A stretch of 64,000 nucleotides of DNA from Prorocentrum cordatum. Its lineage: Eukaryota; Sar; Dinophyceae; Prorocentrales; Prorocentraceae. Positions 8,145 to 27,349 of this stretch are shown piece by piece. The notes beneath the pieces are model-generated. The model was not told the origin of the DNA. It saw nothing but the letters and a program-made list of their open reading frames with translations, and ran no database searches. The position numbers and the translations under genes are program-made. The first letter of the stretch is position 1; every line of letters starts with the position of its first letter. The stretch is taken from contig CAUYUJ010015009.1 in assembly GCA_963575745.1 (NCBI GenBank), forward strand, positions 263,773-327,772, read 5' to 3'.

Positions 8145-8166
8145 TCCGTAGCCATCTCGGATCAAG
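8145..8166 (+). other. relict dinoflagellate spliced leader (DinoSL)
   Basis: CCGTAGCCATCTCGG continuing ATCAAG matches the known 22-nt DinoSL at 18 of its last 21 positions; the mismatches are two T-to-C and one C-to-A. It lies 26 bp before the ATG at 8193. Such relics are the known footprint of dinoflagellate genes copied back from trans-spliced mRNA. Confidence 0.8.
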
Positions 8167-8192
8167 GTATCGCCTGTGTTCTTGGATGGTCC

Positions 8193-11100
8193 ATGGCTTT
8201 GACGGCGAAAGCCCTTGACGAGCAGTATGGCCCGGAGCTGTCGCGGCCTCCCTTGGCCGACTGCGAGAGCCCGTATTATTTGCATCAGGCGCTCGTTGCA
8301 AAGGGTATCCAGGTCAGTCACCAGGCGTGCAAGACTTGGTGGGGCAAGTATCGGGTTGTGCCTGGCAAGGTTAGTATTTCTAGCGCCCAGGAGCTGGAGG
8401 AGCAGCACGGTTCTGCCATCCGCCACCTGGGCATCGAGTATAATACACCTTTCAAATTATGCGGGGCGCTCCGACAGTTGGATCCACCACTGTATGTGAC
8501 AGATCAGGTCGCAAAGATGTGGCTACTGCAGTATTCTTCCAAAGAGACGCTTGTCAAAGTGCAGAACGCTGGCCATCTGGAGACCTGGTATGGAGAACGT
8601 ATTCGCACAGACATGCCCGAGGGGACTACTGACGGGGCCGTCTTGAAGCAGTGGCTCCTGGGACATTTATCTGTATCTGCTGACGCCAGGGTATGCCAGA
8701 AGTGGCTCAGCACGGAGTGGGGCGCCAAGGGAGCATTGAATACTGCCCAAGCTGTGGAGGAATGTATAGGCCAGCGTCTTCGACTCAATCAGTATCGGGA
8801 GAGCTTCGCCGACGAGGCCGCCGCGGAGGTCCTCTCGCAGATTCTCTCGGAGAGCGACCCTCCCGTCGCTGTCAGCGGTATGGTTTTGAGGCAATGGTAC
8901 GTGAAGTATCACCCTGACTCCGGACCTTTGCAGTATGACACGGCTGAAAAGCTCGACGCGGCACTTGGTGACCACATGCGCGCGGTATATCCAGGGCTGA
9001 AGTACCACACCTTGCATGCCGTGTTGCGTATGCGACGGAAAGCTGTCTTGGTGTCCCGAGGAGTGTTGAGACAGTGGTGCGATGTGTATGCGTCGGTGGG
9101 CTCCTCCGTGCAGGCGGCGGCTTCATCCGCCCAGGCCGTCACCAAGCGTGTATTGAAGCGCCCGGCGGCACAGGTCGCAGGCGGTGTATTGAAACGGCCA
9201 GCCGCCGCCGGATCTGCCCGCGTGGCCAAACGGCCTGCCGCGGTCGACGCGGAGGAGCCCGTATCCAAGCAGCAGGCCACGGCAGCTTCTTCCTCCACAG
9301 ATGTGGTTCGTATGACGCTGATGACGGTGGAGGCTCTAGAGGCGGCATGCGGCAAGCGGTATCGAGAGGAGGTCTCCGACCTGGGCCTTGGCCTCGACTA
9401 CCGGAATATGCAGGTGCGTCTGAAGGCCTGGGGGTATGAGACGGGTCCGAATGTCTGTCGAGAGTGGCTTGGCAGGTATCGCCTCGGAGACGGTGCCAAA
9501 CACGGCAATTCCGCCGTCTACGCGCTGTCGCGCAGGGACCTCCAGTACTGGTATCACGTCGAAGGCTTGAGGGGGCGAGCGCTGGTGGACAAGTATCGCG
9601 CGGAGACCGGGGTATTTTCCCATTGCCATCACCTTCAGACGTGGCTGAAGGCGCCCTCTCAGCAGCTGGCACTACTGGAGAATGCTGAGGACGTACATCG
9701 CCACGTATGCGGGGAGTTTGTCCTGGAGCAGCTGCAGAAGGGCGTCTCGGCCGAGGAGGTGAAAAAGCAGTTATTGGCGCAGTATCTCGTTGATTGCAGG
9801 ACGACGACGACGACGACGATGACGACGACGACGACGAAGACGAAGACGACGACGACGATGACGAGAGCGACGGCGACGACGACGGCGACGACGACGACGA
9901 CGACGACGACGACGACGACGATGACGACGACGATGACGACGAGAGCGACGGCGACGTCGACGACCACGCTGACGACGAGAGCGACGACGACGATGACGAC
10001 ATCGGATTGCAGGACCACGCAGCGGCTCCTAGCGTATCGTCGCTATCGCGAGCAGCGTGGCGAATACTGGACCAGCGACCACCTGGAGCAGCACGAGTGG
10101 GAGTTCTTGTATTCCTTGGTCTCTCTGGATAGCAAGCTCGGGCACACCCGGGGGGTTGCTCCCTCTCTGCGCGCCCGGGCCAGATCTGCTCTGGAGACTG
10201 TGCGTATATCCTTATGTGAGCGCTTGGGCGTGGCGGAAGAGTTGGTGCCTTTGCACAATCTTGCGGTATTTTTTGGAGAACACGAACGGCATGCCAGGTT
10301 GGCTCTCGAGTATCCGGATGCCTTCGTATACAAGGATGTGCTGCCAGGCCCTGTGTTGGAGGCCTACGAGAAGACCTTCCAGGGCCAGGTGCTGCCCAGG
10401 ACTGCGCACGCGTGTATCTCCGACAAAGAGCACGGCTGGTATGCGAGAGCTTGCAGCGTGGCGACAGCTGACCGTTGCATAGTATTCCCGAAAATGGCGG
10501 CGGACGCTTGTCTTGTTGCTGCGTATGCCATGTTGAAGTGCCAGGAGGTATTTGAGCGACAGTCTTGGTCCATGTCATTACTCACCAGTATCCAGGCCAC
10601 CTACCAGAAGCAGTATAATTTGACGGACTTTGCGTTCTGGGTGTGCTACGGGAGTTGGTCCGCTTGCGAGGCCTGCGGCTCGTTCTTCTTTAATGACGAG
10701 TATTTCTCGAATCGTGTATATCAGGACCGCAGCACGTCGGAGCAACCAGACATGCTGGCGGCGTATCGTCGGCAAGTACCGCACGACCCGGTGGTGCACG
10801 CCTGTGGCCAAGTTGGTATATCTTCGAGATGGTGGTATAAGCCAGGCATGTATACGCCTGTGGTTGCCACATGCCCTTGCTGTTCTGGCAAAGAGACCCC
10901 TCTCGAGAAGTTCAACCGGCGTATGCAGAACCACGGCAAGGCCCTCAAGGTAGCAAAGACGTCGGAGCTGTATAGGATCCCCTTGGCCACGAAGTCGGGC
11001 TACGAGGCAAAGGAGTGTATCAGCTGGCCTCGGTATTCCTTTGGGCAGTTTTCGCTGGACCACACCACTGGACCCTGTATGCACGAGATGACCGTGGACG

Positions 11101-25930: not shown

Positions 25931-25947
25931 TATTGCCGGCCTTCCGT

Positions 25948-26913
25948 ATGGCTTCCCAGATGGCCGGTCGGCTCGACCCCGTGACGGGCGAGTATTACCC
26001 AAGCGATGATGAAGTGCGCTACAGTATGGAGCGCTGGCACACGCCACCCAACCACGAGGCGTATGCGCGGCGCTGGCTCAAGCAGTGTGGCTCGGAGAGG
26101 TGGTTCGCGTGCGGTATCTTCTTCCCTATTCTATGGGAGGGTGTCAAGGGCGTATGCCTCGCCGTATCGAGCGTTATGTCCACGAGGCAGTCGAAGACGA
26201 ACAACGACCCGGACTACCAGCACAGTATGGGGGGCATCCCCGAGCCGGAGTGGCTTTACTTCGACGCCTTCTTCTACGCGCGCGCGGTATTCGGGAACTT
26301 CTCGGTATTCCAGGATGAGAGGCTTGGGAAGCCCATTGGCTACCTTCTGCACGTATTCGACACGCTGTGCACCGCGCGAGGTATCGTCGCCTGGAAAGCC
26401 AACCTCTTCGTCCACCCGGGCCAGTGGGTGTATAGCAGTATGCGGTATTTGCTCGGTCAGCTCGCTATTCCCATTCATGCGGAGATCGTATCCGGCCTCT
26501 CCTACAGGGCCCTCGCCACCTTGGACGTATTCATTGCGTATCACGCGGCCTTCATGGGTACGGACCCGCAGAAAATGGCCATTTGGAACGTATCCCCTGA
26601 GGTCGGCCCAGAGATGAAGTATCCGCGTCAAGACCAGTGGTGGTGGTTGCCCGTATGGCGGTCTTTTGGTCAGAGCGACGAGTATCCGAACATGCTCGAT
26701 TACCCGGCCTTGCCACCGCAGGTCCACAACGTGCTCGCGTTAGCACTGCCGTATGCAAGCCCCGGCTCTCTCGCCAGCAGGCGTATCGGCAATATCATTG
26801 GGCATTTGGGAGCGCACGGGTATCAGCCAGGCCCGCACCTGCATCAGCCAGGCAGCCATGTATCAGCCAGCCGCAAGCGCCTTTGCGACGTCGCAGACGA
26901 CGAGTCGCCTTAG
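25948..26913 (+). CDS. orphan protein of 321 aa
   Basis: ATG at 25948 (MASQMAGRLDP) is the first Met after the shared leader. The protein is rich in aromatic residues (WLYFDAFFYARAVFG, QWWWLPVWRSFG), has no obvious signal peptide and ends in a His/Pro-rich stretch followed by a basic ASRKRLCDVADDE tail that may act as a nuclear signal. No family is recognised. It shows the strongest GTAT enrichment in the window (29 in about 1 kb by hand count against one ATAC). Confidence 0.65.
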   Translation: MASQMAGRLDPVTGEYYPSDDEVRYSMERWHTPPNHEAYARRWLKQCGSERWFACGIFFPILWEGVKGVCLAVSSVMSTRQSKTNNDPDYQHSMGGIPEPEWLYFDAFFYARAVFGNFSVFQDERLGKPIGYLLHVFDTLCTARGIVAWKANLFVHPGQWVYSSMRYLLGQLAIPIHAEIVSGLSYRALATLDVFIAYHAAFMGTDPQKMAIWNVSPEVGPEMKYPRQDQWWWLPVWRSFGQSDEYPNMLDYPALPPQVHNVLALALPYASPGSLASRRIGNIIGHLGAHGYQPGPHLHQPGSHVSASRKRLCDVADDESP

Positions 26914-27349
26914 TATGCTTCTGGGTGAGTATACTCCTACGTGTGACTGGACCTGTTTGCGAAAGCAGGAGAAAGTATGGCACCCCTTTGTGTCCAGAGC
27001 CGCGCCGTCTGCGTTATTCCTTTCTCGCTTCTCTCCTTTCCTCCTTGTCCTGCTCCTCCTCCCCCTCTTGCGCCTCGGAGCCGTATTGGAACTGTCGATG
27101 GCCATCTCCCTGTCTCCCTCGCATGTCTGCTTGTACATATGTATAATTTCAGAACTAAACGTGCATGTGATCGTTTAGAACATGGTGGACCGTGCGTATG
27201 TCACGAACCTTGTGTACTTTCTCTCCCTCCGTCTGGCTGTGCACGCGCGCGTTGGGCAGTGAGAGTTAGGATCACAGCGCCACCAGTGTATGAGCAATGC
27301 ATGCGTCATCCTTGGGACTGTATAACAGCAGAAACAGACAACATTGCAT
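26914..27349. other. gene-free interval, end of island
   Basis: GTAT density falls off here (last cluster near 27289-27319). A pyrimidine-rich stretch lies at 27005-27070. Nothing else is recognised. Confidence 0.5.

Follow-up and report, generated by a model that had tools for sequence, protein, structure and literature searches.

A clade-specific four-letter word tiled along the sense strand of Helitron-like genes in Prorocentrum cordatum

Introduction

In a stretch of 64,000 nucleotides from the dinoflagellate Prorocentrum cordatum (contig CAUYUJ010015009.1, here C14160, positions 263,773 to 327,772 of the forward strand; hereafter the window, counted from its first letter), the tetramer GTAT crowds one strand of an island of genes at 8146-27323. 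The island sits within a Helitron-like element of about 21 kb on the + strand, at about 7016-28150, which carries a Rep-helicase gene (RepHel, first seen as open reading frames (ORFs) A and B) and genes C, D, E and F. Why are the genes of a mobile element written with one short word, is the word kept by selection, and on which molecule is it read? We report that GTAT is a clade-specific sense-strand code under selection, and not a product of composition, codon bias or mutation. The genes carry the word of their clade, and selection acting on both synonymous sites and amino acids keeps it evenly spaced. We think that the likeliest reading is on RNA, by a putative factor specific to the element.

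GTAT abundance and strand

In codon-preserving shuffles of six ORFs of the island, GTAT was expected 101.9 times, while 227 were present (z 19.5). The runner-up word, TATC, reached z 6.5, and the antisense word ATAC was at expectation (19 against 17.2±3.2). A preliminary description, made from the letters of the window, had proposed an oriented word acting at the nucleic acid level through synonymous choice, and had named a shuffle with the same density as the result that would overturn it; the excess over the shuffles (227 against 102) and the neutral ATAC support the proposal. GTAT was carried in all three codon phases, as had been described, and the three kinds of opportunity were used at rates of 72%, 73%, and 54%. 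GTA codons were followed by T in 66 of 72 cases, in agreement with the remark that they nearly always are, and TAT codons were preceded by G in 106 of 118. Six other ORFs of the window, including that of a long interspersed nuclear element (LINE), used 11 of 94 opportunities. Recounting gave exactly the 21, 21, and 29 GTAT counted by hand in three blocks of the island (ATAC 2, 1, and 0), and the four counted in the LINE block at 44821-45720.

The region 8146-27323 contained 330 GTAT and 95 ATAC, against 46 and 62 in the remaining 44.8 kb of the window. Elsewhere in the 4.13 Gb source genome, 190 one-kb bins averaged 1.99 GTAT, where the bins of the island averaged 17.1. The control bins came from 20 hand-picked regions, which were not picked as genes; one bin, a microsatellite, held 86. 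An equal density across ordinary genes had been named as a second result that would overturn the proposal, and these bins did not show such a density. One control region (L013, 1501-3000) showed 13-15 CTAT per kb and 0-1 ATAG, apparently as a GGCCTATTCTG-type tandem repeat.

The strand bias was limited to genes and presumed untranslated regions (UTRs), into which the tiling extends past the ORFs (limits by eye). Satellite blocks of more than 900 nt between the genes had 11-13 GTAT and 9-15 ATAC per kb. The idea of a strand-specific island thus holds for the genes and presumed UTRs, but not for the satellite spacers, where the two words are about equal.

Even spacing and gap-dependent use

With the two inserts of RepHel (described below) excluded, 225 of 342 GTAT opportunities were used. 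Their spacing was compared with a null model in which each opportunity was used independently. The coefficient of variation (CV) of the gaps was 0.475 against a simulated 0.797±0.048, the longest gap was 111 against 210±39 nt, and gaps of 12 nt or less numbered 8 against 34; each of these values was reached in 0 of 3000 simulations. No periodicity was found in GTAT spacing. The RepHel transcript without its inserts (6530 nt, 139 GTAT) had a mean gap of 47, a CV of 0.46, and a longest gap of 111.

The use of an opportunity rose with the gap that its omission would leave: 1/11 at 15-30 nt, 6/31 at 30-45, 22/48 at 45-60, 77/121 at 60-90, 59/64 at 90-112, and 46/46 above 112 nt. The top class follows in part from the data themselves: with a longest gap of 111 in these ORF pieces, no unused opportunity can appear there, and the dose-response argument is therefore carried by the lower classes and the simulation.

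The word in amino-acid choice

For each of the 256 words, the number and evenness of residue pairs able to encode it were compared with those of shuffled proteins. In the ORFs of the window, GTAT ranked first of 256 for number (z 8.3) and for evenness (z -5.8) in the run over all words. It was the best-tiled word in 38 of 49 close homologs of ORF B, and the top word in all four homologs of gene F. When only the residues differing from the window were shuffled, leaving out P0001 (93% identical), GTAT ranked first in 25 of 48 proteins; it ranked 39th or worse in P0013, P0019, P0026, P0027, P0028, P0030, P0031, and P0048. The pooled z was -16.9 against -6.6 for the next word, a value inflated by relatedness, as 47 distant, mostly untiled relatives reached -7.3 when pooled (CTTC, next word -6.7, no word standing apart). 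Amino-acid choice is bent to keep the word, and the signal is not merely synonymous.

GTA and TAT codons are frequent in the tiled genes, which could suggest an artefact of composition, codon usage, amino-acid make-up or context-dependent mutation. The codon-preserving shuffles, the neutral complement, the even spacing, the dose dependence, the open frames, and the amino-acid signal all speak against such an artefact, and we give it almost no credence.

Substitutions among copies

Between the window and two copies about 98% identical to it there were 131 substitutions, of which 1 lay in a GTAT word where 10.8 were expected (P 0.00016). In a copy of about 93% identity, two apparent compensations were seen, with GTAT lost at 10204 and 11264 and gained at 10206 and 11236. 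In the most diverged copy, L031, five of ten lost GTATs had become GCAT (window 9261, 9551, 10034, 11017, and 11077), possibly by a decay bias.

CTAT, a second word

CTAT was the top word in 13 more distant Helitron proteins, judged from the proteins alone. Over 121 Helitron proteins, counted without the four gene-F homologs, GTAT was top in 46, CTAT in 13, and any other word in at most four. The DNA of relatives was examined at loci of the P. cordatum genome, five of them for CTAT. In matching blocks, CTAT and ATAG numbered 46:0, 92:10, 48:3, 69:0, and 50:3. CTAT was the most strand-skewed tetramer in all five, and GTAT occurred there at 0.2-2.7 per kb; codon shuffling gave z 17.1 for CTAT and -6.5 for GTAT. 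The spacing was even (CV 0.63 against 0.88±0.05) on a longer scale than that of GTAT; the CTAT figures for CV, longest gap and dose response include one of 13 blocks out of frame (L034). The P. cordatum protein P0055 matched contig C17473 at up to 100%, where a CTAT block of about 8 kb at 9-33 per kb is flanked by 0-4 per kb (one flank bin being N only). As the call from proteins preceded the DNA, the word was predictable from proteins and was confirmed on DNA.

In a quick tree of 114 rows, which excludes the gene-F homologs and P0053, P0054, P0062, P0115, and P0118-P0120, all 41 GTAT-labelled rows fell within one starred group of 54 (13 unlabelled). CTAT rows stood in several groups. A starred group of 38 rows carried neither word, with many listed as Symbiodinium or as ubiquitin-protease fusions; P0113 of this group reached GTAT rank 1 at z -2.4. 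Two ATAT rows were sisters: in these proteins, P0057 and P0058, ATAT was best tiled (z -3.5 and -2.6). From these two proteins, a third word of the NTAT type, ATAT, is possible.

GTAT and CTAT occur side by side in one nucleus, each bound to its element clade. The earlier view that the signal is confined to the island is accordingly true of the window only, since further copies of the element carry GTAT and a related clade carries CTAT. The even spacing with its dose response, the bent amino acids, the mobility of the element, and the second word had been missed.

Non-coding CTATG arrays with a hairpin (CATAGGTTCCCCA/TGGGGAACCTATG) were seen in CTAT-clade elements at L033 2270-2720 and L035 3330-3980 (gene orientation). 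CTAT is dense in these arrays, like the ATACGTAT motif in the satellites of the GTAT element.

The host element and its copies

The features of the element are as follows; its exact ends are approximate.

7016-28150, + strand: whole mobile element, Helitron-like, with (TTG)n at both edges
7016-8145, + strand: left end, untiled, 0 GTAT in 1130 bases
8146-8166, + strand: spliced-leader-like (SL-like) sequence before RepHel, 3 mismatches to DinoSL; GTAT tiling begins at the next base
8146-15220, + strand: RepHel transcript as tiled, 3' limit by eye
8193-9791, + strand: RepHel exon 1, N-terminal region with predicted tandem three-helix, helix-turn-helix (HTH)-like units
9792-10004, + strand: insert A, 213 nt, GAC-rich, 11-bp direct repeat GATTGCAGGAC, 0 GTAT, intron- or introner-like
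10005-11315, + strand: RepHel exon 2; homologs span both junctions
11316-11647, + strand: insert B, 332 nt, GAC-rich, 11-bp direct repeat CAGAGGATCCG, 0 GTAT
11648-15055, + strand: RepHel exon 3, HUH-like Rep (RGTPHWH) and Pif1-type helicase, opened as ORF 11678-15055
15342-16883, no strand: satellite array between genes, GTAT about equal to ATAC, ATACGTAT motif
17353-18171, + strand: gene C, function unassigned, starting at the first ATG in the likely frame; tiled, with tiling on to about 18340
19536-19556, + strand: SL-like sequence upstream of gene D, 5 mismatches
19617-20321, + strand: gene D, tiled
23081-23101, + strand: SL-like sequence upstream of gene E, 4 mismatches
23114-24460, + strand: gene E, function unassigned, tiled
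25873-25893, + strand: SL-like sequence upstream of gene F, 5 mismatches
25933-26913, + strand: gene F, function unassigned, densest tiling (27.5 GTAT per kb), tiling on to 27320
27904-28095, + strand: right-end segment with a CCCCCAC/GTGGGGG hairpin by eye

The left edge consists of TTG units followed by GAACATTATT in the window and in two copies. The alignment of the copies on C14382 and C1237 to the window begins at 7016 and 7040. The element is a multi-copy mobile unit: ORF B was scored at 41 places in the genome including the window, 40 at 98-100% identity and one at 95%, and 38 of the 41 were stop-free. A first look gave 629 candidates for ORF B, which suggests that 41 is a lower bound. 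The comparison with a second copy covered RepHel and gene F; the C14382 copy matched window 25537-28152, the gene F region, at 98.8% identity and at a similar distance from RepHel. Of the Helitron end features (5' TC, 3' CTRR, hairpin, A/T insertion), a hairpin was seen by eye near the approximate right end. The right-end segment (window 27904-28079) recurred at 86% in L039 (3189-3364), about 570 bases beyond the end of that copy, and this repeat probably represents a short, non-autonomous relative.

In three other copies, the parts examined had 0 GTAT upstream of the SL-like site (1258-1521 bases, lying partly outside the element and, in L031, including a run of N), and 56-64 GTAT in about 3.4 kb after it. 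The final 772 bases of the element held 3 GTAT. The preliminary description had offered several meanings for the word, among them an orientation mark like Chi and an RNA processing or binding site. The untiled ends, the GTAT-free inserts A and B and the unoriented spacers make a Chi-like mark of the whole molecule a worse fit than an RNA mark, which is in our judgement the best fit; at the ends and in the spacers the word does not run oriented along the molecule regardless of transcription. A related possibility is a single-stranded DNA signal of rolling-circle transposition, for example sites on the displaced top strand at which priming or loading takes place. In its favour, the word is oriented and the tiled strand is the RepHel coding strand; against it, the word is missing from both ends and from long stretches of the spacers, with gaps of 287 and 536 nt there. 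We consider this very unlikely.

The RepHel gene and its inserts

ORFs A and B together form a single gene of 2105 codons, interrupted by two GAC-rich inserts; the frame is fully open when the inserts are removed, and P0046, P0062, and P0053 align through both junctions. Insert A is missing from copies L030 and L031, where a single repeat unit remains, and is present in L029. Insert B, which is likely an intron, was found in the window, C14382, and C1237, with a matching insert in C5848. A GAC insert sharing the AGCAGG.CC repeat was also found in the CTAT-clade loci L034 and L035. The members of this family (inserts A and B, L034 about 1820-2025, L035 about 3225-4070) have direct repeats of about 10-11 bp and AG/G edges, and are probably GA-donor introns or introners.

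In one specific form of RNA reading, the word would be an anti-intron mark: the loose splice sites of dinoflagellates (GT, GC, or GA donors, AG/G acceptors, direct repeats) would allow word-free stretches beyond a minimal intron to be excised, which would explain the scale of the gaps. Within the RepHel gene, GTAT gaps exceed 111 nt only where they contain the inserts, whose removal leaves about 39 and 35 nt. GTAT-free AGG..AGG pairs 60-600 nt apart were 3 of 1434, which is largely a consequence of the tiling, and the dose response climbs over 45-110 nt. One source reports introner elements and GA/GC donors in P. cordatum and a gene prediction altered to admit GC and GA donors (PMC10666404), and another gives a mean of 120/240 nt for non-canonical introns of Amoebophrya (PMC7789003). 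On the other hand, the GAC-bounded insert of L035 holds most of the 47 CTAT outside the exon blocks of that locus, gaps are longer in the CTAT clade, and other sequence of the same genome manages without the word. We regard an anti-intron mark as improbable.

By its sequence, ORF B is a probable Helitron-type Rep-helicase. Its helicase matched Pfam AAA_30 at 48.7 bits, above the cut-off of 27, and PIF1 among PDB sequences (E 4e-4), so that a Pif1-family helicase is fused to the putative Rep. In the latter, RGTPHWH was read in the sequence, and Helitron_like_N scored 15.9 bits, under the cut-off of 28.9. ORF B had 62 homologs, among which Pfam PF14214 (in P0002, P0006, and P0050) and PF13604 were listed.

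The N-terminus of RepHel is predicted, by our reading of a model, to form five to seven tandem three-helix units. The main rival to RNA reading starts from here: the tandem HTH-like array would bind co-oriented GTAT or CTAT in element DNA. Flexible linkers would account for the single orientation, the loose spacing, and the limit of reach, and divergence of the array would account for the different words. Besides the model, P0055 of the CTAT clade has tandem N-terminal repeats, which show up as offset matches to its own locus and to related ones, and P0064 and P0065 of that clade gave weak HTH-family Pfam hits, all under the cut-off. However, the model is of low confidence (mean pLDDT 67.6, pTM 0.31) with weak fold matches, and Pfam gave no HTH family match for the N-termini of the window RepHel, P0046, and P0062. 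The untiled P0076, P0078, and P0079 also list HTH accessions. In addition, the left 1.1 kb and the right end are untiled and the spacers unoriented, yet the presumed UTRs and genes are tiled. DNA reading of this kind thus appears unlikely to us.

Spliced-leader-like sites and accessory genes

The four SL-like sites were found with the consensus of the dinoflagellate spliced leader (DinoSL). For the site at 8146, 100 shuffles gave no hit with 3 or fewer mismatches, and no further + strand place in the window lay within 6 mismatches. Sixty shuffled queries gave a mean of 0.43 hits within 6 mismatches and a maximum of 4, so the three weaker sites rest on their positions. The sites would suit genes that are transcribed separately and trans-spliced; they may also be relics left by the recycling of mRNA.

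From a motif seen by eye, gene D resembles an SGNH hydrolase; gene D had no Pfam match. A homolog of gene F (P0124, 87% identity across 55% of the query length) appears in EukProt under the transcriptome of a Pyramimonas, by either contamination or horizontal transfer. Outside the element, a LINE-type endonuclease ORF (window 43534-44172) is untiled and used 3 of 12 GTAT opportunities.

Discussion

RNA reading is suggested by the tiling past the ORFs, the untiled ends of the element, and the neutral complement. GUAU or CUAU on element transcripts would be read by a lineage-specific putative factor, possibly encoded by the element and needed every 50-100 nt or so along exonic RNA. The bound factor would mark the RNA as self and shield it from host processing such as cryptic splicing, decay, or silencing. 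A word-free stretch would be exposed, and the cost would grow with its length. Taken as a whole, a tiled word read on RNA by a factor of the element lineage as a self mark is the best explanation we can offer, and we hold it tentatively, as an account whose chance of being right in full is somewhat short of even.

Several observations weigh against it. The spacer satellites are word-rich on both strands, and since the tiled genes are all on one strand, orientation cannot separate sense RNA from a DNA strand. GTAT was not the top word in 11 of the 49 close relatives, whose pooled z is inflated as noted above, and its conservation was weak in the copy of about 93% identity (11 of 204 substitutions against 16.9 expected). 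The longest gap in the CTAT clade, 364 nt, was not under the simulated 413±77. GTAT accessibility in predicted RNA folds was no higher than in matched synonymous shuffles (0.276 against 0.270±0.011). As an exonic signal, the word is present in presumed UTRs and absent, as GTAT, from inserts A and B, yet the GAC-bounded insert in L035 is itself full of CTAT and the satellites are rich in the word.

Helitrons likewise have an RGTPHWH Rep-like motif and a Pif1-type helicase. The present element differs in its size of about 21 kb, its several extra genes, its SL-like sites, its N-terminal HTH-like array, and its tiled word. Chi sites, FtsK-orienting polar sequences (KOPS), and DNA uptake sequences are short, oriented, lineage-specific words at the DNA level, but they are genome-wide and far sparser, while here the genes of a single element clade carry the word once per about 45 nt. 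Exonic splicing enhancers and silencers are sense-strand and exonic and act in any frame, but they are degenerate motif sets, in contrast to one exact tetramer with even spacing and dependence on clade. Periodic A/T clusters license germline genes in C. elegans, and RNA viruses have dispersed packaging signals; both are likewise dispersed short signals tied to expression or RNA binding, without a single exact tetramer, gap-dependent selection, or reach into amino acids. A literature search on dinoflagellates, Helitrons, and evenly spaced transposon words, with subscription papers and preprints outside its scope, found nothing on a tiled word, in line with the preliminary description, which knew of none. 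To the best of our knowledge, a code laid over the genetic code that steers amino acids and differs between clades in one nucleus has no counterpart.

Each Helitron lineage may write its own four-letter self-word over all its genes for use by its own putative reader; the dialects GTAT, CTAT, and perhaps ATAT would then serve as private addresses that keep apart the RNA or DNA of self, rivals, and host, a proposal that we consider evenly balanced. The tiled word implies an undescribed recognition system in dinoflagellates, for self versus non-self nucleic acid or for exon definition. Open frames in many near-identical copies allow it to be tested directly, and because the word can be read from proteins and predicts the DNA, other genomes can be screened for further words.

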